Source: a virus. From it: DNA of 22,490 nt. Location: positions 1-22,490 of the IMG/VR virus record IMGVR_UViG_3300046517_001238, one strand, 5' to 3'. Positions within the stretch are counted from its first letter, which is position 1, and each line of letters begins with the position of its first letter. The notes beneath the pieces were generated by a model. It did not search any database. It saw nothing but the letters and a program-made list of their open reading frames with translations, and was not told where the DNA came from. Made by a program: the position numbers and the translations under genes. Shown here piece by piece: positions 3,482-21,117 of the stretch.

Positions 3482-6349
3482 TTACCTCAACACCACCTGG
3501 CCGTTGATTGTCGCCCCGTCGCTGATCAGCTTGCCGCCGGTCTGGTCGATCGGGCCTGTGACCGTGGTGCCGGTCCCGAGTTCCGCCTGGCCCTGCCGGA
3601 GAATCAGTGGCTTCGCCCCGCCCAGGTTGGCGACCTCGCCGGCCCACAGGGCGCAGCCGAAGTTGCCGTTGATGATCTCCCAGACGTTCGACGCGTGGGA
3701 TCCTTTCCAGACCACGGCCGGGATCCCCGACTCAGACCCGGAGCCGGTGTCGACCAGCCGGCCGGCGACCTGATCGGGTCCCGTGTCGAACTGGATCTTT
3801 CCGGAACCGGTCCCGTCGCCCGTGCCTATTTGGATCTGCTGAGTTCCGGCGGCTCGCAGACCGATTCGCAGGAAGCGCGGGCGGTATTCGTGGTAGCCGC
3901 CGGGGTTCTGCCGCGGCAGTCCGACATCGCCGGTGAACCGAGAGTTCATTTCGGCATAGTCGAGACGCACGCCCATTGTGTGCGTGCCGGTGCCGGCGGT
4001 CGTGATGTCGATCGGAGAGCCGCCGCTGGAAGCGCTGATCTGGCAGGTGGCGGCGTTGCGATCGACGTTGATCAGGTAATAGTTGGTGGCCGCCGAGATG
4101 CCGGCGGGGAGACCCCCGCCGGCATTGCTGAACTGCACGATCTGGTCGTTGACGAATGAGCCGCCGGTGTCGCCGGAGGCTTTTCCGAACGTGATGACGT
4201 CGGTGCCGGCGTTGGCCGTGATCGTGCAGAGCTGGGCAATGCCGTATAGGCAGCCGCTGTCCCCGTCCTCGCAATAGAGCGAGTCGCCGGTGTCAGGGAC
4301 CCGGCCGCGAGACCAGTTGGCGGCAGTGTCGTAATGGTTGGGGCCGGCGCTGAACGTCGTCGTCGAGACGGTGACTGCCTGCGTGCCGAATGTGCCGGTC
4401 AGGTTGGCACCGTCGCCGATCAGCAGCGGCTGCAGGGCGTTGGCTTGGGCACCCGACCAGGTGACAGTCCAGGGACCGCCGGCCGAGCCGCTGACAGAAA
4501 CGGTGTTGACGGTGGGCAGCGCCCGCAGATCGGTCTGCACGGTGGCAGCTGCGGCGTTCCAGGCGATCGGCGTGCATTCCGCCGAGCCGTTGAATGACAG
4601 CGCGAACGTGCCGCCGCTGACTCCGGCCTCGAGCGTCACGAGCTGCACTTCGCTCGCGCCGGCGCTGCCGGCAGTGAGTTCGGCGATTGTCCCGCCGCCG
4701 CCGGTCAAGCTGGCCGCGTTGGCGGTGAGCTCGGCAATGTTGGTGTTGGCCGGGGCGGTGACCGTGACACTGTAGGGGCTGGCGACCGTTCCCGCTCCGG
4801 AGGTCGTGGTGGTGGTGATGGTGGCCGACAGGTCGGCTTCAATGCGGGTCTTGAGCGTCGCGGCAGAGGCGTTGAAGGCGATCGCCGACGTGGTCTGGGC
4901 TCCCTCGGTGAGGGTGAACGTTCCCCCGGTCGCAAAGACGGTGATTGTCTGGATTTCGTTCTGGTTGGCATGGCCGGCGGAAACCCGCGTGACTGTCGTT
5001 CCGGCGCCTCCGCTGAGTCCTGCGGATCCGACCGACAGCAGATTTGCCGCGGTGTTGGCCAGCGCTCCGTTGAAATGCACTAACAGGACCGTAGGCCCGA
5101 AACCGATCGCGGTCTGAAAACTGCACGTGGTCACTGTGACGTTTCCGGCCCCGATGTTACTGAGCGCGGCCAGCGCGTTTTGCACGCGCGTTGACATAAC
5201 GGGCGATGCACTGTTAGCGGCGATCGGCGCGGTAGTTTTGTTGCCGTATGTCAGGGTGAAAGTTCCGGTGACCGCGGATCCGTTGAAACCCAGATCGACA
5301 ATTTGGAAATCATCGCTGGTCGATTGGCCCCCCTGCTGCAACGTCGAGACGGTTCCCCCATCAGCCACAGTCGTGGCGTCGAGCACGAGCTGCGACACGT
5401 TGGCATTGGCCAGCACGCCGGTGAAATGCACATAGAAGTAACCGCAGTTGCTCCCTTCGGATCCGGCCTGAAACCCATACACGAGCGCATTGCCGGATCC
5501 GACCGTCGAGAGCCCCTGAATCGCCGTCTGGATCGTGGCCGGCGTCGAGCCACTCGACAGCGTGGCGGTCGTCTGACCGTTGAACGTGAGCGTGAAATTC
5601 CAAGCGCCGTTGATGTTCGACAGGTCAATCAACTGGATCTCGTCGGACGTGCCGTTCCCGTCCTGCGTCGTCGTGATCGAGACGCCGCCGTTGCCGGTGA
5701 GATTCGTGCCGTTAATCGTCCCCGCGGCGATCGATTGGGAACCGAGCGTTCCGGTCCACGTCACAAACCAGGGCGAGTTCGGACCTGGGCCGCCGGTCAC
5801 CAGCACATTCCCCGCCCCCACTCCGGTCAACGCCACGAGCGCCGCCTGCACAGTGGCCGCGGTGGCGTTCCAGGCAATGTTGCCGGTCGTCACGTTCCCC
5901 GCGCCGACGTTGTAAGTCAGCGTGAATGTTCCCCCCGAATAGCTCCCCACCAGATTGATCTGGTGCACCTCGTTGATGCCCCCATGCCCGGGCGTGCTCT
6001 CAGTGACAATCACCGTCCCGGCCGTCGAGCTCGTCGCCGATGCCGTCACATCGAAGGGGATGCCCGCCGTCGCGGCCACTAGGGCGACGTAATCCATCAG
6101 GCCGTCGCCGTTGCTGTCGACCGGGCTCGCCAGGAACTCGGCGAATTCCGGGATCGATGTAGAGGCCAGGGCCGCAGCCAGCCCCCGGCAAACGTCGTCC
6201 ACCGTCGACGCGGCCGCCGTGTAGCCCACCGACTTGCCGTTGCAGCTCAGCGTGAAGCCGTCGCCGATGACTACGTTGAGCGGAGTGACCCGCGTGATTT
6301 GAGCGATGGGAAGTGCGTCGCCGCGCCACGAATTGATAACGGCAGTCAT
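3482..6349 (-). CDS. Large tail protein with five tandem beta-rich repeats
   Basis: This is a 955-aa protein. Residues 1-125 form an N-terminal domain (VVIGDGFTLSCNGKSVGYTA, AGIPFDVTAS) that contains DSNGDGLMD at 78-86, a possible calcium-binding loop of the DxNxDGxxD type. Residues about 126-668 hold five copies of a 100-115-aa module starting near 127, 237, 347, 465 and 567. Each has an E(I/V)Q(L/T)I strand, (G)GTFTL, a helix such as NATAATVQAALVAL, GAGNV and a Trp- or His-bearing strand. From 668 to the end the protein changes to HYDTAANWSRGRVPDTGDS and then Gly/Thr-rich strands, suggestive of a beta-helix. The modules resemble repeats in minor tail proteins of actinobacteriophages. A tail-tip adhesion or fibre-shaft role is inferred. 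The ATG at 6349 has GAGG six bases upstream. Confidence 0.82.
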   Translation of the reverse strand: MTAVINSWRGDALPIAQITRVTPLNVVIGDGFTLSCNGKSVGYTAAASTVDDVCRGLAAALASTSIPEFAEFLASPVDSNGDGLMDYVALVAATAGIPFDVTASATSSTAGTVIVTESTPGHGGINEVHQINLVGSYSGGTFTLTYNVGAGNVTTGNIAWNATAATVQAALVALTGVGAGNVLVTGGPGPNSPWFVTWTGTLGSQSIAAGTINGTNLTGNGGVSITTTQDGNGTSDEIQLIDLSNINGAWNFTLTFNGQTTATLSSGSTPATIQTAIQGLSTVGSGNALVYGFQAGSEGSNCGYFYVHFTGVLANANVSQLVLDATTVADGGTVSTLQQGGQSTSDDFQIVDLGFNGSAVTGTFTLTYGNKTTAPIAANSASPVMSTRVQNALAALSNIGAGNVTVTTCSFQTAIGFGPTVLLVHFNGALANTAANLLSVGSAGLSGGAGTTVTRVSAGHANQNEIQTITVFATGGTFTLTEGAQTTSAIAFNASAATLKTRIEADLSATITTTTTSGAGTVASPYSVTVTAPANTNIAELTANAASLTGGGGTIAELTAGSAGASEVQLVTLEAGVSGGTFALSFNGSAECTPIAWNAAAATVQTDLRALPTVNTVSVSGSAGGPWTVTWSGAQANALQPLLIGDGANLTGTFGTQAVTVSTTTFSAGPNHYDTAANWSRGRVPDTGDSLYCEDGDSGCLYGIAQLCTITANAGTDVITFGKASGDTGGSFVNDQIVQFSNAGGGLPAGISAATNYYLINVDRNAATCQISASSGGSPIDITTAGTGTHTMGVRLDYAEMNSRFTGDVGLPRQNPGGYHEYRPRFLRIGLRAAGTQQIQIGTGDGTGSGKIQFDTGPDQVAGRLVDTGSGSESGIPAVVWKGSHASNVWEIINGNFGCALWAGEVANLGGAKPLILRQGQAELGTGTTVTGPIDQTGGKLISDGATINGQVVLR
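4346..5974 (-). repeat. Five tandem protein-level repeats in the 955-aa tail gene
   Basis: This stretch encodes residues about 126-668 of the 955-aa protein. The copies share a skeleton but not nucleotide identity: a strand with E-(I/V)-Q, then G-T-F-(T/A)-L-(T/S), then an N-A-(T/S)-A-A-T helix, then G-A-G-N-V, then a (F/W)-x-V-x-(F/W)-x-G strand. Copies 1, 4 and 5 keep the Trp or Phe before the Asn-Ala helix (IAWNATAATV, IAFNASAATL, IAWNAAAATV). Copies 2 and 3 have lost it. Boundaries are approximate because they were set by eye. Confidence 0.75.
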
Positions 6350-15104: not shown

Positions 15105-16013
15105 TTTTTTCCCCTTGTTCAAGGTCTTCATTGAAGCGGCGCGGGCCACGCCCAGCGCCTGGTCAAAACTTCCGACACCGTCCGCCAGACCGCAGTCAAC
15201 CGCTTCCTGGCCGACCCAGACCTGGCCGGTCGCCAGCTTGCGAATGTCGTCGATCGACATCTCGCGGCCGCGTGCGACGCCCGCCAGGAACTGCTCGTTG
15301 AGCGCGTTGATCTCACGCTGGTAATCGGCCAGCTGGTCGGCTGTGACTTCCGTCCCCGGCACGCCGGCCCCTTTGAACTGCCCGGCGCGCACGACATGCA
15401 CCTTATAGCCTTCCTTCGACGCCGCCATACTTTCGTCGACGACGACCCCGTATGTGCCGATGGAGCCCCCGAGACACGTTTTCTGGAGGATGAGCTGAGA
15501 ACACTGCGCCCCCACCCAAAAGGCCGCCGAGGCGACCATGTCCTCGCCCAGGCCGATCACCGGTTTCTGGAGCGCCGCGGCCGCCACGTCGTCGGCCAGT
15601 TCCGACGTGCCGGCCACCGTCCCCCCTGGGGAGTCGATCACGAGCAGGATGGCCCCGACTTCCGGATCCGCCGCCGCCGCCCGGATGGCCCGCCGAGTTT
15701 CGACCGTGCTGGCCGATTGGCCCAGACTGGCCCGCTGTTTCTGCATGCGGCCCCGGAGTTCGATCGTCGCCACGCCCCCCGCGTCGCGAGTGTAGGCGAC
15801 CGCTGGCGAGTCGCCGCGGCCGGCGGCGACTTCCGGGGCCTTGGACGACAGGTGCAGCGCCACGTCGACGCCACGGATCGTGCGGGCCAGCGACTGGAAC
15901 TCATTCTCCCGCATGGCCCAGGCCCCCAGCCATTCCTCGAGGTACGGCACCTGCGACATGCCGGGCAGGGGGCTGAATTCAGCAGCGGTGACTTCCATGA
16001 CAGGCTCGGTCAC
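14658..16013 (-). CDS. S49-family capsid maturation protease with fused scaffold domain
   Basis: This is a 451-aa protein starting with GTG at 16013, which overlaps the portal stop as GTGA and has GGGAGGA at ideal spacing. The in-frame ATG at 15998 is a weaker choice. Residues about 80-290 form an SppA/S49 peptidase domain with ATIELRG, VIDSPGGTVAG, DMVASAAFWVGAQ (Ser162 as nucleophile), GGSIGTYGV and AGQFKGAG (Lys214 as general base). The Ser-Lys spacing of 52 equals that of Bacillus SppA. Residues about 304-451 are a charged helical tail with IEQAKKDADAKVALAQKEAA, typical of a scaffold. As in lambda C/Nu3, the protease domain would be incorporated into the procapsid through this tail and then cleave the scaffold. 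An internal start at 15104 supports this. Confidence 0.9.
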   Translation of the reverse strand: MTEPVMEVTAAEFSPLPGMSQVPYLEEWLGAWAMRENEFQSLARTIRGVDVALHLSSKAPEVAAGRGDSPAVAYTRDAGGVATIELRGRMQKQRASLGQSASTVETRRAIRAAAADPEVGAILLVIDSPGGTVAGTSELADDVAAAALQKPVIGLGEDMVASAAFWVGAQCSQLILQKTCLGGSIGTYGVVVDESMAASKEGYKVHVVRAGQFKGAGVPGTEVTADQLADYQREINALNEQFLAGVARGREMSIDDIRKLATGQVWVGQEAVDCGLADGVGSFDQALGVARAASMKTLNKGKKMAAASYQDIVAACPGATPDFICDQLKAGATADAAVKGWMGHQQAQIEQAKKDADAKVALAQKEAAEKIKAAEDKARLAETGVRPLKDGKSEGGSEEGGGSSLEKFNEFVEAKVKLGMRRPKAVSAVSREHPQLHAAVVTEANANRKAS

Positions 16014-17587
16014 GATTTTCCTCCCGGGTTGCCTGACGGTGCGGCGGCCTCGTTGGCCTGGGCCTGGGTGGCGAGCTGGATGGCGGCCGTCGCCTTGTCG
16101 ACCATTGGAATCGAGACGACCTCGCGCCAGTCGACGCGGGCCTCTTTGAATTCGTTGTTGAGCGCCTCGGCCGCGACGATCGCCCGCCGAATCAAGCCGG
16201 CGTTGTCCTCGATGATCTCGTCGTGAACCTCGGTCAGGTCCCGCCCATGGGCCGCCTGGATGCGACGCCGGCTGTTCAGACAGCGGCTGGCCTCCATGTC
16301 GTCCGCCGTGATGTCGGTGAGCGGCTCGACGTAGGCGAACTGCGGCGGGTTCCAACGGTGATCGAAAATGCGCGGGCCGAGTTTCTCCGCGGCCGCCTGC
16401 AGAGCGGAGTCCCGCGCGATCAGCCGGCGCAGCCACCATTGATAAACGGGCCGGTGGAACTTCGAGACCATCCAGGCCTGGATCTGACGGAAGCGAATCC
16501 GGGCCTGGTCGATCGCCCCGCGCCATCCGCTGAAATTTGTCCGACTCGGGTCTAGCAACAGCACGTGAACCGGCAGATCCAGATTGATCGCGATGAACGT
16601 GAGCAGCAGCATCGTGTGGGGGAAGAATTCGGGCGACGGGATGCTGGGCGAGAAGGCCTCGAGCTTCTCATCGACCTCCGAAAAGAACTCCAGCCCGGCA
16701 GAATAGCCGGCGATCGATCGACTGCCGGTGGGACTGTCCTCGACGACGATGCCGTTGGTGTCGACCTTCTTCGTCGGCTCCCAGTGCTCGCCGCGGTTGT
16801 GCATGATCGCCACGAGCGCCGCGGCCTGCGCCTTGACCAGCGTCGCGAACTGCACGTCGTCGTGTTGGCCGACCGTATCCGAGCAGGGAGCCAGAAACGT
16901 GATGCCGCGACGCTGGCTGAAACGCGTGGGCATGTACAGGTGCAGCACCTGGCGGCGGCCCTCCGAGTCGCGGGCGTCGATCGGTTCGATGTCGCCGACC
17001 CTGCTGACCGCCTGCATGGGGCTCAGGTTCTCTTTCGTGAACCAGTACTGCTTGCGCTTCGCGTTGTCGTCGAGCAGCACGCCATTAACGACGTTGCGGG
17101 TCGTCCTGGACGGAGTGCGGCAACGGTGGGCCTCGCGCCATTGCAGCCGGTTCGTGTTGAGCGGCAGGCAGAACGTGTCACCGTCCGTGACCACCGACGA
17201 GAGGGCCAGCCCTTCCATTTCGGCGAACGTCAATTCCCCCTCGTGATCGCATTCGTCGGGCTCCGTCGACCAGCCGCGCCAGTTGTCGCGGATCCGGGCG
17301 TCGACCTCTTTGTCGCCAGTCTGCGGGTCATGGCGGAAGCCGTCCTGCACGATGTTCGCGACTAGCCGGCGGATCCCCTGGCCGACAACCTGGTCGTTCC
17401 GCTGGTAGTGCCGAGCCCGCTCGAGCATGTGGAGCCAGCGCGCCTCGAAGCGATAGTGATAATCGGCACCCGAGCCCATCGGCTGCACGCCGGTGAGCCG
17501 GGGCACGAATCGCGACTCGTGCGCCATCCGGAAATCGGCCCGCAGTTGGTCGTATACCTCGGCCAGTGATGGTCGCGTTCGCGGCAT
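16010..17587 (-). CDS. Portal protein (lambda gpB family)
   Basis: This 525-aa protein has the size and layout of lambda-type portals. The N-terminal helix region contains WLHMLERARHYQRNDQVVGQGIRRLVANIV (about 51-80), matching the usual ARDLxRNxxxxxxxxxxxxxxVVG region. SSVVTDGDTFC lies near 130-140. The stem/helix segment DPSRTNFSGWRGAIDQARIRF is at 346-366, followed by PVYQWWLRRLI (380-390). It forms the dodecameric ring at the head vertex through which DNA is packaged by the terminase. The ATG at 17587 overlaps the upstream stop (TAATG), and its own ribosome site is weak, so it is coupled. The 3' end overlaps the protease start. Confidence 0.9.
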   Translation of the reverse strand: MPRTRPSLAEVYDQLRADFRMAHESRFVPRLTGVQPMGSGADYHYRFEARWLHMLERARHYQRNDQVVGQGIRRLVANIVQDGFRHDPQTGDKEVDARIRDNWRGWSTEPDECDHEGELTFAEMEGLALSSVVTDGDTFCLPLNTNRLQWREAHRCRTPSRTTRNVVNGVLLDDNAKRKQYWFTKENLSPMQAVSRVGDIEPIDARDSEGRRQVLHLYMPTRFSQRRGITFLAPCSDTVGQHDDVQFATLVKAQAAALVAIMHNRGEHWEPTKKVDTNGIVVEDSPTGSRSIAGYSAGLEFFSEVDEKLEAFSPSIPSPEFFPHTMLLLTFIAINLDLPVHVLLLDPSRTNFSGWRGAIDQARIRFRQIQAWMVSKFHRPVYQWWLRRLIARDSALQAAAEKLGPRIFDHRWNPPQFAYVEPLTDITADDMEASRCLNSRRRIQAAHGRDLTEVHDEIIEDNAGLIRRAIVAAEALNNEFKEARVDWREVVSIPMVDKATAAIQLATQAQANEAAAPSGNPGGKS

Positions 17588-17874
17588 TAGCAGCGGATAT
17601 CCGAGACGTCGATGTAACGGTCCACCTGGCCGCCGCCGTTCGCGGCCAGCCAGCGGCTCGCCCGGAGCCGCTCTTCGCGGATCGACATCGCGTCGAATGC
17701 GATCGACCGTCCGCCCGCCTGCGTCATTTGGGTGGGGCGACGGCGAAGGAGGATCCGGCAGGCGGTGATGAACGCGGCCGCCTTGGCCGCGTTGCCATCT
17801 TCCTCATACGACGAGTTGTCGTCGTATGCCTGCCAGACCTGGGCGTCAGTGCTCGCGGCGTTCAGTGTGGACAT
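17587..17874 (-). CDS. Head-completion-like protein (gpW position)
   Basis: This is a 95-aa protein starting MSTLNAASTDAQVWQAYDDNSSYEEDG. It has a helix with KAAAFITACRILLRRRPTQ near 30-50 and then SIREERLRASRWLAANGG near 67-85. It lies between terminase and portal genes, where lambda has W, and its size is close to that of W-type head-completion proteins. Similar short proteins, with a Tyr-Glu-Glu-Asp-Gly motif and a helical pair, occur at this place in other phages. The same frame is open upstream and has an ATG at 18021 that overlaps the previous stop as ATGA. The extra 49 residues are poor in GC3 and contain a YQR repeat, so the shorter form is preferred although it has no clear Shine-Dalgarno. 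Confidence 0.7.
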   Translation of the reverse strand: MSTLNAASTDAQVWQAYDDNSSYEEDGNAAKAAAFITACRILLRRRPTQMTQAGGRSIAFDAMSIREERLRASRWLAANGGGQVDRYIDVSDIRC

Positions 17875-17923
17875 GCGGCCGGATAATCTCACAGGTTCGG
17901 TCGACTGCAAGAAATTTCCGAGT

Positions 17924-17959
17924 TGGTACGCGTGGTATCTTTGGTATCGTTGGTATATT
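17924..17959. repeat. Four tandem 9-bp TGGTA-led repeats
   Basis: TGGTACGCG, TGGTATCTT, TGGTATCGT and TGGTATATT follow one another without gaps at 17924, 17933, 17942 and 17951. The block is AT-richer than its surroundings and lies between the RHH-like gene and the head-completion gene, next to two palindromes. It looks like an iteron-type binding array, but no function is shown. Confidence 0.7.
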
Positions 17960-17990: not shown

Positions 17991-18029
17991 GACTGGTCAT
18001 GACCAGTCGCTGATCGGTCATGACTGATC
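17991..18029. promoter_or_regulatory. Twin palindromes, candidate operator
   Basis: GACTGGTCATGACCAGTC (17991-18008) is a perfect 18-bp palindrome. GATCGGTCATGACTGATC (18012-18029) is an 18-bp palindrome with one mismatched pair. Both share the core GGTCATGAC, and their centres are 21 bp apart, two helical turns, so proteins bound to them would face the same side. They straddle the stop codon of the RHH-like gene. No T-run follows in either direction, which argues against a terminator. Confidence 0.6.
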
Positions 18030-18380
18030 GACCGCCGCGGCCGCGGCCTCGATGGCGTCGGCCATCGACTCGAGCAGGTATCGCAGCGCGTCGGCATTCG
18101 ACCAGACTTGCCGTCCGTCTGGCCGCTTCGCCTCGGAAGCCCTGAGCGCGTTCCGATAGCGGGCGAACACGGCGGCTCCCCGCGGGCCGACCTGGACGTT
18201 CAGGTGAGCGCCGGTGTCCCCGTCGAGAGTCATTTCGCCGCCGGCGATGAGCTCGGTCTGGAAGCCGGGGCGCTCGGGTGCCCCCAGCGTCAGTGAAAGT
18301 GTGATCTCGGCCGGCGCTGTCGCCGCCTGGGGGGCCGCCTTGCCATTTCCGGTTTTTCCGGCGTTCTTCGTGCCTGCCAT
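18018..18380 (-). CDS. Ribbon-helix-helix-like DNA-binding protein
   Basis: This is a 120-aa protein. Residues 1-25 are a Lys/Ala-rich tail. Residues about 25-60 hold strands (EITLSLTLGAPE, GGEMTLDGD). Residues 59-113 fit a ribbon-helix-helix unit: a strand (HLNVQVG), helix A (GAAVFARYRNALRASEA), a turn with RPDGRQ, and helix B (SNADALRYLLESMADAIEA). RHH proteins bind DNA as dimers through the strand. The gene lies between the large terminase and the head-completion gene, a place where lambda has no regulator. Its 3' end overlaps a pair of palindromes, a possible operator. The ATG at 18380 has AGGAG upstream, and a GC hairpin repeat precedes it. The fold is proposed by eye. A small structural protein is the alternative. 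Confidence 0.6.
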   Translation of the reverse strand: MAGTKNAGKTGNGKAAPQAATAPAEITLSLTLGAPERPGFQTELIAGGEMTLDGDTGAHLNVQVGPRGAAVFARYRNALRASEAKRPDGRQVWSNADALRYLLESMADAIEAAAAAVDQS

Positions 18381-18393
18381 GTTTCCTGCTCCT

Positions 18394-18425: not shown

Positions 18426-20741
18426 TTAACGATCCGTGACAAAGAATGAGCCGTGCCCAGGGGGCGGAACGAGATTGACCGCGGGCCTCTGCACCGAGAG
18501 CGGCCGCGGAGCCCGATCGGGGATCCCCAGGATATTCGCTCCGCACATCGACGCCGCCACGCCATTGCCGACGATGCAGTCCCACCAGTGGTTATCAGGC
18601 TGCTGGGGCCGCGGTGGCGTCCACTCCCGCACCGAGCGGCCGCCGAAGGGAATGTCGTTGAATTTCTCGCTCGTCCAGTGCAACGCCAGCAGGGAGTGCC
18701 GCTGAGGGTCGTCGCCGAACAGCGACAGGCCGCTCCCGGATCCGGGCGCTACCAGCAGTCGCGAGAGGATGGTGGATTTCCAGAAATTCGCATCGAACAC
18801 GACGTGCCTGACCTCGCCGCGGCGTTCGACCGCCGGCATTCGCCAGTTCGTGCCGATCAGATCGCGCTCTTTCTTTCCTCGAGCGACGAACGGCGTGCTT
18901 TTGGCCCCGACATACATCCCGTGGCTGGGGGCCAGTATCTGTTTGAAGGCCGACTGCCCGATGAAGCGATACACTGTGTCGCGCGACAGGCCCCAATTCG
19001 CGTCGATCAAACAACGGTCGATCCGGAGCGGGGCCCCGTCCTGGCGGATCCAGTCGCGAACGAGCAGCTGGGCCGTCAGATTTTGAAGGGCCAGAAATAG
19101 CATTTCCTCGAGCCCCAGGCCCTCGAAGCCCGGCTCCTGCCGGAGTGGCCGCGGCAGATCGCCATAGAAAAACAGCGAACGCTCCTGGTCGGGGAAGGTG
19201 CCGTAGTCGAGCACCCAGCCCGTGAACCGCTGATCCCAGCCGCAGACCAGCCAATAAAACGCGTCAATCTGGAGGTCGATGAAGCAGGTGACGTATTGAG
19301 CGCTCGCGGGCGCGAGGCCGCGATCGAAGCCGTTGATCCGCTCGATGACCTGCGTCTCCTCGAGCTGCGATTGGCTCCCCAGTTCGGGCCGCGGATCGTT
19401 CTGGTATTCGGCAAAGAAACTCTCCGGGTTGTCGATCCATTTGTTCATCGCATTCTGAATCGCGGAGACGCATCCCTCGAGGCGGTGCTTCCAGCTGACC
19501 TCGGCCCCTTCGTCGAGCTCTGCCTGGTGCGCGCGATAATAGGCGTCGCCGGCGGCCCCCCGATCGCCGGCCTGCATGCCCGCGTGCCTGACCTCTCGAT
19601 ACTCCTTCCATCCCTTTTTATTGGTCGGCCAGGACTTGAGCATTTTGGTTCGGATGCCGTCCCACTCCGGTTTTTTGGAATGGTCGAGAAACTGATCGGC
19701 GAGGTCGCTGGGATAGATCACCGTGCAGGGCATGACGCATGCCATCCGGCGATCGGGGCCAGCCAGACCGAGGACGTCGCCCTCGATCAGTTTGACGCGC
19801 TCTTTCGTCGTGTTCGGATTCTTCGCCGACTCCCGCGTTTGCGGGTCGTCGGGAATCGCGAAGTCGGGGCGGCGTGTGATGATTCGCCGGCGGCCGTTCG
19901 GTTCGACAACGGTCACGTCGAACTTCTGCCCGCGGATCTGCCCGGTGATTCCGCAGGTGCTGACAATGCCGCCGGCCGATTCGGCTCCGGGAATATTCGG
20001 CAGCACGAGTGTGCCGCCCTCCCATCGAAGAAATATTCGCTTCCCCTCGTAGAGCAGTCGCCGCTGAGCGATTCCCTCGAGGCGGCGGACAGGGTAGCAC
20101 ATCTCCGGGAAGGCCCTGAACAGCCGATCGTTGTCCTCAATCTGCCGCTTGATCGTCGCGAGACGCTGAATGGCGTGGTCATCGTCGGGGCCGACAATGC
20201 ACACGAAGCCCCGGTGACCGTAGGCGAGCGCCCAGATTGCAGCGCATTCGGCGATCGTCGTTTTGCCGTAGCCCCGCGGCATGCCGACCGCGACGCAACC
20301 GCCATTGAGGATCACGTGCTGCAGCACGTCGAGCAGAACCAAGTGCTCATTAGACCACGGAAGCGGGAACTGGTCCGGAAAAAATGCCTTCAGGAACAAT
20401 CGCAGATTGTGCCGGCAGCGCTCCCGCAGGCGCGGCAACCGGCAGGCCGGGATAGTGCCGATCTCCCGAACGCTCTGCGCCTTCTCACGCTGGACGGCCC
20501 CCGATCGATCGCGGTGTGCCTCGTAGCCGTCGCCGGATCCGGCCGGCGCGTGCCGCCGGTCGAACAGCCACGCCACATAGCGGAAGAAATCGACCGTGCG
20601 ACCGTCGCCGATCCGCCAGCCGGCGCTCTGCCGATGGCGATGGAGAGTCCGCGGCACGATCACCGGGCCGATGTCTGTCGAATTGAGCAACGCCACCACG
20701 TCGGACGGCCTCAGCTTTCGCGGATCGATTGACGCCTTCAT
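18426..20741 (-). CDS. Large terminase subunit (TerL) with N-terminal TerS-like domain
   Basis: This 771-aa protein packages DNA into the prohead and cuts it. Residues 8-64 are a small domain (LRPSDVVALLNS, DFFRYVAWLF) that also occurs in the preceding 106-aa protein. The ATPase has a Walker A GMPRGYGKT at 153-161 (Lys160) and a Walker B region DFAIPDDPQT at 293-302, with Pro297 where a hydrophobic residue is more usual. The segment TRESAKNPNTTKERVKLIEGD follows. The nuclease domain starts near 480 with CFIDLQ (Asp489), continues with LIDANWG (Asp580) and ends with DNHWWDC (Asp721), giving three candidate metal-binding acids. The ATG at 20741 is chosen because the frame upstream reads as a shadow. 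Its ribosome site is weak. It lies 55 bases after the 106-aa gene. Confidence 0.9.
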   Translation of the reverse strand: MKASIDPRKLRPSDVVALLNSTDIGPVIVPRTLHRHRQSAGWRIGDGRTVDFFRYVAWLFDRRHAPAGSGDGYEAHRDRSGAVQREKAQSVREIGTIPACRLPRLRERCRHNLRLFLKAFFPDQFPLPWSNEHLVLLDVLQHVILNGGCVAVGMPRGYGKTTIAECAAIWALAYGHRGFVCIVGPDDDHAIQRLATIKRQIEDNDRLFRAFPEMCYPVRRLEGIAQRRLLYEGKRIFLRWEGGTLVLPNIPGAESAGGIVSTCGITGQIRGQKFDVTVVEPNGRRRIITRRPDFAIPDDPQTRESAKNPNTTKERVKLIEGDVLGLAGPDRRMACVMPCTVIYPSDLADQFLDHSKKPEWDGIRTKMLKSWPTNKKGWKEYREVRHAGMQAGDRGAAGDAYYRAHQAELDEGAEVSWKHRLEGCVSAIQNAMNKWIDNPESFFAEYQNDPRPELGSQSQLEETQVIERINGFDRGLAPASAQYVTCFIDLQIDAFYWLVCGWDQRFTGWVLDYGTFPDQERSLFFYGDLPRPLRQEPGFEGLGLEEMLFLALQNLTAQLLVRDWIRQDGAPLRIDRCLIDANWGLSRDTVYRFIGQSAFKQILAPSHGMYVGAKSTPFVARGKKERDLIGTNWRMPAVERRGEVRHVVFDANFWKSTILSRLLVAPGSGSGLSLFGDDPQRHSLLALHWTSEKFNDIPFGGRSVREWTPPRPQQPDNHWWDCIVGNGVAASMCGANILGIPDRAPRPLSVQRPAVNLVPPPGHGSFFVTDR

Positions 20742-20796
20742 GCCCGAGTCCCGGTCGCCAGCAGCGACCGCTTGTGGAGCGTGCCGCCGCCTGGAA

Positions 20797-21117
20797 CTAT
20801 TCCTTCCCCTCTCGCACCAGCCACGCCGCAAAGACGAACAGGTCGATGCGTCCCCTGGCGGCGACTGGCGCGCCCTGGGCTAGATCGGCCGCGATTGCAT
20901 CCTCGGTGATGTGTTTCCCGCCCGCCTGAACCAGTAGCCTCGACAGGTCCGCCACGGTGAGCGAACGGAGCGAGGGCTGGCTCGGCTGCTTTGGGGCGCT
21001 GGCCGCGTCCCGGACATTTTTGTTTTTCGGCGCGGCCCCGGTGGGCTTGGCCGACCGCCGTTTCAGAGACGACCGCTCTTGTCGAGTTCCGCCTTTTTGC
21101 CCGACAGGTTTTCCCAC
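20797..21117 (-). CDS. Putative small terminase / packaging DNA-binding protein
   Basis: This is a 106-aa basic protein. Residues 1-48 are Lys/Arg/Gln-rich and probably disordered. Residues 50-104 form a compact domain (LTVADLSRLLVQAGGKHITE, RIDLFVFAAWLVREG) that aligns with residues 8-64 of the following large terminase. The position directly upstream of TerL and the likely DNA-binding character suggest the small terminase role of recognising the packaging site. The start is GTG at 21117, inside the end of the methyltransferase gene (55-base overlap), with no good ribosome site. A CTG overlapping the methyltransferase stop is a possible alternative. The length is shorter than usual for TerS, so the role is tentative. 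Confidence 0.65.
   Translation of the reverse strand: MGKPVGQKGGTRQERSSLKRRSAKPTGAAPKNKNVRDAASAPKQPSQPSLRSLTVADLSRLLVQAGGKHITEDAIAADLAQGAPVAARGRIDLFVFAAWLVREGKE

Follow-up and report, generated by a model that had tools for sequence, protein, structure and literature searches.

The window, that is, the whole stretch of DNA analysed, is an entire virus record of 22,490 bases. Its head genes lie on the minus strand in a lambda-like order: methyltransferase, a 106-aa gene, the terminase large subunit (TerL), a 120-aa gene, a 95-aa gene, portal, S49 protease and major capsid. The earlier note had placed the 120-aa gene in the late operon, between the terminase and portal genes, with a perfect and a near-perfect 18-bp palindrome at its 3' end and 21 bp between their centres, and this arrangement was confirmed. 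The 95-aa gene, for which no Pfam match was found, is called gpW here by position only. The features of the locus are as follows.

18426-20807, minus strand: TerL (PF20454, phrog_38).
18018-18380, minus strand, stop codon included: ribbon-helix-helix (RHH) family gene, a 120-aa open reading frame with a good Shine-Dalgarno sequence at 18389-18393 and a TGA at 18018-18020.
18027-18212, minus strand: predicted ribbon-helix-helix domain, residues 57-118 (AF2 and VIA-align).
18012-18029, unstranded: 18-bp palindrome with one mismatch, GATCGGTCATGACTGATC, overlapping the stop codon of the 120-aa gene; not conserved.
17991-18008, unstranded: perfect 18-bp palindrome, GACTGGTCATGACCAGTC; not conserved in relatives.
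17924-17956, minus strand: array with a 9-bp period, ATACCAACG ATACCAAAG ATACCACGC GTACCA, in the same register as the arrays of relatives.
17905-17910, minus strand: possible -35 element TTGCAG, weak (3 of 6 positions to consensus, 16-bp spacer) and below the promoter-scan threshold.
17883-17888, minus strand: possible -10 element GATTAT, separated from the start codon by 8 nt; relatives have TANNNT at the matching place.
17587-17874, minus strand: gpW-position gene, 95 aa, no Shine-Dalgarno sequence, predicted leaderless or near-leaderless start.
16010-17587, minus strand: lambda-type portal (PF05136, phrog_21), the first candidate target-operon gene after gpW.

Most relatives of the terminase and portal come from genomes of Planctomycetota or from viral contigs of uncultivated origin, and a planctomycete host is therefore likely, judging from these sequence relationships. 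The 106-aa gene upstream of TerL (20797-21117) has a C-terminal half that looks, by eye, like the N-terminal segment of TerL in the window, and it is possibly the small terminase subunit. The contig end (21063-22448) encodes an N6/N4 DNA methyltransferase, the N-terminus of which weakly resembles ParB. The product of 3482-6349 (955 aa) has many internal repeats and is likely to belong to the tail or the virion surface.

No Pfam, PHROG or PDB-sequence match was found for the 120-aa protein, and all sequence searches with it as a single query were empty. Syntenic homologues of the gene did turn up in phages with a related portal or capsid, and among the portal relatives approximately 60 distinct ones were collected. 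An iterated profile search gave 72 matches, recovering the window's protein at E 3e-16, with the family consensus xxPxxxxxGYxxxHxxVxLxxxQxxxLxRLxxGLxxxxxxLxxGRxVxxxADAxRWLLEQ. When 56 family members were compared with Pfam and PHROGs, no convincing match was obtained, and none of them matched a Pfam RHH entry. Profiles of the short RHH domain frequently overlook distant members. We tested 20 contigs without the gene near the portal and found it elsewhere on 7 of these, all at least 14.5 kb long; the others comprise one 15.6-kb contig without a family gene and shorter fragments. Another sample of portal relatives, the second set, provided 24 distinct new loci, of which 22 carried the family gene. 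A tblastn search of annotated phage genomes with one family member found nothing.

The earlier note had read the gene as an RHH-like regulator, and fold prediction supports the RHH part of this reading. AF2 supplied with the 56-sequence alignment yielded pLDDT values of 93-95 over residues 61-110; run on the single sequence, without the alignment, the prediction was poor (mean pLDDT 52). The model contains a strand H59-L-N61-V-Q63-V (extended over residues 59-64) followed by helices at 66-81 and 95-118, giving the beta-alpha-alpha topology that RHH domains form within about 45-60 residues, here with an inter-helix loop longer than that of Arc. The top VIA-align match was the RHH domain of PrpA (7ycv), with a modest Z of 4.7 and an rmsd of 2.6 over 53 residues; no sequence similarity of PrpA to the 120-aa protein is shown. 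PrpA is an antitoxin. Foldseek gave no significant match for the model, the TraM DNA-binding domain being among the non-significant ones, and nothing significant among viral models. Within the family, the strand follows a polar H-x-D/E/N/Q-x-Q/R pattern in which polar and hydrophobic residues alternate. In RHH proteins such as Arc and omega, a strand alternating in this manner enters the major groove. On the strength of the model, the 120-aa protein is likely to have the RHH fold, and it would be expected to dimerise.

Many of the relatives' intergenic regions contain direct repeats with a 9-bp period directly upstream of the gpW start. Significant lag-9 repeats occurred in 16 of 32 intergenic regions, compared with 3 of 32 for each of two coding controls, gpW and the portal. 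Across 74 loci, lag-9 arrays at -120 to -60 from the gpW start were present in 20, with counts of 0-4 for other lags or neighbouring bins; the idea of an array arose on part of these data, the relatives' intergenic regions, and was tested afterwards. The array is also present where the RHH gene lies far from gpW. A total of 31 forward arrays place the core TCCG in one register to the gpW start, typically at -80/-71/-62/-53 and within 1-2 bases (Rayleigh p about 8e-7). In the window, four TACC cores start at -81/-72/-63/-54 from the gpW start codon (17874). The register follows the gpW start codon, which is what transcription beginning at that point would lead one to expect. Most contigs contain a strict three-core pattern about once per phage, and its reversed control had no match in virus records. 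A regulon with many such arrays was rejected, the array occurring essentially once in full contigs under this strict three-core search; additional short two-core sites are possible. In the second locus set the arrays replicated only partly, in about 5 of 24 loci. Six relatives (L170, L202, L204, L208, L218 and L240) have forward TCCG repeats followed by two inverted CGGA cores near -54/-45, a composite layout not seen in the window.

The gpW-position protein has a conserved start in relatives, MSxLxSASTDxxVWxAYDDNASY. A longer version of 142 aa, the ATG of which overlaps the stop codon, was discarded, since the shorter start is the one used by relatives. Upstream of this start, a Shine-Dalgarno-like motif was found in only 2 of the 74 loci, A occupies -11 in 53 percent and T occupies -7 in 50 percent. 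TANNNT at -16 to -12 occurred in 28 of the 74, compared with a mean of approximately 0.8 loci per other offset, and this signal replicated well in the second set (at -12 in 8 of 24). A TANNNT roughly 12 nt upstream is a mark of leaderless genes in many bacteria (PMC3160421). The window's own -35 and -10 elements are weak. Phages related by terminase, which have other genes in the slot of the 120-aa gene, were first sampled for homologues and later used as a negative control. In 93 distinct family-free loci from this group, the region upstream of their own, different gpW-like gene contained 1 lag-9 array, 4 instances of spaced cores, TANNNT at -12 in 2 cases and a Shine-Dalgarno-like motif in 55. 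Both the array and the TANNNT start lacking a Shine-Dalgarno sequence are thus absent as features from family-free terminase relatives.

A further observation connects the protein family to the repeats. The central strand residue is D or E at 32 of 32 loci with TCCG cores, and N, N and H at the loci with TACC cores (0 of 3 acidic; Fisher p 1.5e-4, with only 3 loci of the TACC type). When all 136 tetramer classes were compared, so that cores were not preselected, TCCG and ACCA best separated acidic from N/Q loci (p 5.5e-5 and 4e-4, respectively). Pairing of D/E with C, and of N/Q with A, is chemically sensible. On the portal tree the central residue changed at least 6 times; independent contrasts, few in number at 6 pairs, went mostly in the same direction and were not significant (sign test median p 0.125-0.25).

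The explanation we consider best, and on balance probable, is that an RHH protein sits on the phased array and activates a separate leaderless promoter for the head genes. The 120-aa gene would encode a ribbon-helix-helix DNA-binding protein, the dimers of which would lie side by side on the tandem 9-bp repeats, in constant phase immediately before the -35 region. The transcript would start at, or a few bases from, the gpW start codon, and the bound protein would most likely help RNA polymerase to start transcription of gpW, portal, protease and capsid, so that the head module could be switched separately from the terminase. Binding of the 9-bp array by the 120-aa protein is suggested by the residue-core correlation and by the shared distribution of family and array. 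The proposal in the earlier note that the head module is controlled separately from packaging gains support from the phased repeats and the leaderless-type promoter at the gpW start. A more far-reaching version, to which we would give slightly less than an even chance, is that these proteins form a widespread phage family of RHH activators not described before, the recognition code of which can be read. Depending on whether it is D/E or N/Q, a single strand residue would select TCCG or ACCA as the core of the 9-bp repeats, and these would sit at a constant distance from a leaderless promoter serving only the head operon, with packaging and head building timed apart.

Most characterised RHH proteins are repressors, and the same protein might occupy the same array as a repressor that silences the head genes during lysogeny or before the late phase of infection. 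Centromere-binding RHH proteins that sit on tandem repeats double as repressors (PMC5016525). However, the array stops near -40 to -50 without covering the -10 region, a typical activator position; we lean towards activation, and consider repression rather unlikely. Alternatively, array and promoter could both be real, with a host or other phage protein binding the repeats and the 120-aa protein doing something else. This would accommodate the fact that about half of the loci with the RHH-family gene have no recognisable array, but the core letters follow the strand residue of the 120-aa family, and phages without the family are also without arrays, making a different binder improbable. The array could instead be a cis-acting site for the initiation of packaging or for partition, with the RHH protein acting as an adaptor in packaging or at a centromere, like ParR or omega. 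The site does adjoin the terminase and has almost no counterpart elsewhere in the genome, and partition sites are known in which RHH proteins occupy short tandem repeats (PMC5016525). Against this, the register stays locked to the gpW start codon even with the RHH gene elsewhere, the array co-occurs with a promoter-like start, and the 106-aa gene upstream of TerL is by position the better small-terminase candidate; we regard a packaging or partition role as quite improbable.

The last alternative takes the paired palindromes as the operator of the 120-aa protein, as proposed in the earlier note; the 9-bp repeats, which that note does not mention, would then be incidental. Shuffled windows contained 0.24 perfect 18-bp palindromes each on average, and a pair (at most one mismatch, 18-30 bp apart) arose in 4 of 200 shuffles, making the pair unusual though not extreme, at a level of about 2 percent. 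While relatives keep the gene, the palindrome core GGTCATGACC is at the matching place in none of them, and by the earlier note's own standard the palindrome reading fails because of this absence. An exact search for the palindrome in viral contigs likewise gave no match. Despite the rarity of the pair in shuffles and the ACCA/TGGT letters of the array within it, an operator at the palindromes is very improbable, as no relative keeps the pair, and it is missing even from L162, the closest of those that share the strand motif. The operator site previously named is probably wrong, and the likely site is approximately 50 bp further on, at 17924-17956. A secondary, phage-specific role for the palindromes is possible, since the ACCA/TGGT letters are common to both elements. 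The palindromes were also considered as an intrinsic terminator and rejected: no T-run follows, and a terminator scan found none there.

Several known systems resemble parts of the favoured activator model. Arc and Mnt of phage P22 are phage RHH regulators, and the Q-x-N-x-R strand of Arc resembles H-x-N-x-Q of the 120-aa protein. However, Arc and Mnt repress genes of the lysogeny region from pseudo-symmetric operators, and do not lie in a late operon as here. The sites of ParG are short boxes. Omega of pSM19035 and ParG, both type Ib partition proteins, share the RHH fold, bind short direct and inverted repeats and also have a repressor role (PMC5016525), with no sequence match to the 120-aa protein. 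Omega uses 7-bp heptads, and both serve plasmid partition with a ParA-type partner, whereas the window phage has a 9-bp period before head genes. In the case of ParR/parC (type II partition), an RHH protein on 10-bp tandem repeats beside a promoter resembles the proposed layout (PMC5016525), although ParR has an extra C-terminal domain for an actin-like partner and a role in partition, unlike the proposed head-gene regulator. In omega, ParG and ParR alike, tandem short repeats are bound next to a promoter; in the window the repeats are phased and constitute a candidate site only. With respect to role, P2 Ogr, P4 delta and Mu C are late activators bound upstream of a late promoter, like the proposed protein. 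They are, however, zinc-finger or HTH proteins with other sites and several late promoters, in contrast to the one promoter proposed here, and the 120-aa protein has no cysteines, unlike the zinc-finger proteins Ogr and delta. The literature searched contained no description of late-gene control in phages of Planctomycetota and related hosts.

The proposed switch is concrete and testable, comprising a family without Pfam or PHROGs match, a likely binding site, a promoter and a proposed residue-to-base rule. If correct, head genes arranged in this lambda-like order would be transcribed from a promoter of their own, whereas lambda makes a single late transcript, and planctomycete genetics could gain a simple regulatory part in the array together with the RHH protein.

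In terminase-related phages, the slot between terminase and portal often holds a small NrdR-type zinc-ribbon protein (PF22811, E 5e-8; loci L004-L083, for example L004:2328-2531), possibly another DNA-binding regulator in the same position. L005-L010 and L016 have a 363-aa gene resembling C5 cytosine methyltransferases (MRYGSVCSGIEAA...PCQSFS) between terminase and portal (for example L005:7426-8514). The viral contig IMGVR_UViG_3300047319_001451 (L137) encodes a capsid protein 100 percent identical to that of the window, and may represent almost the same phage recorded twice.
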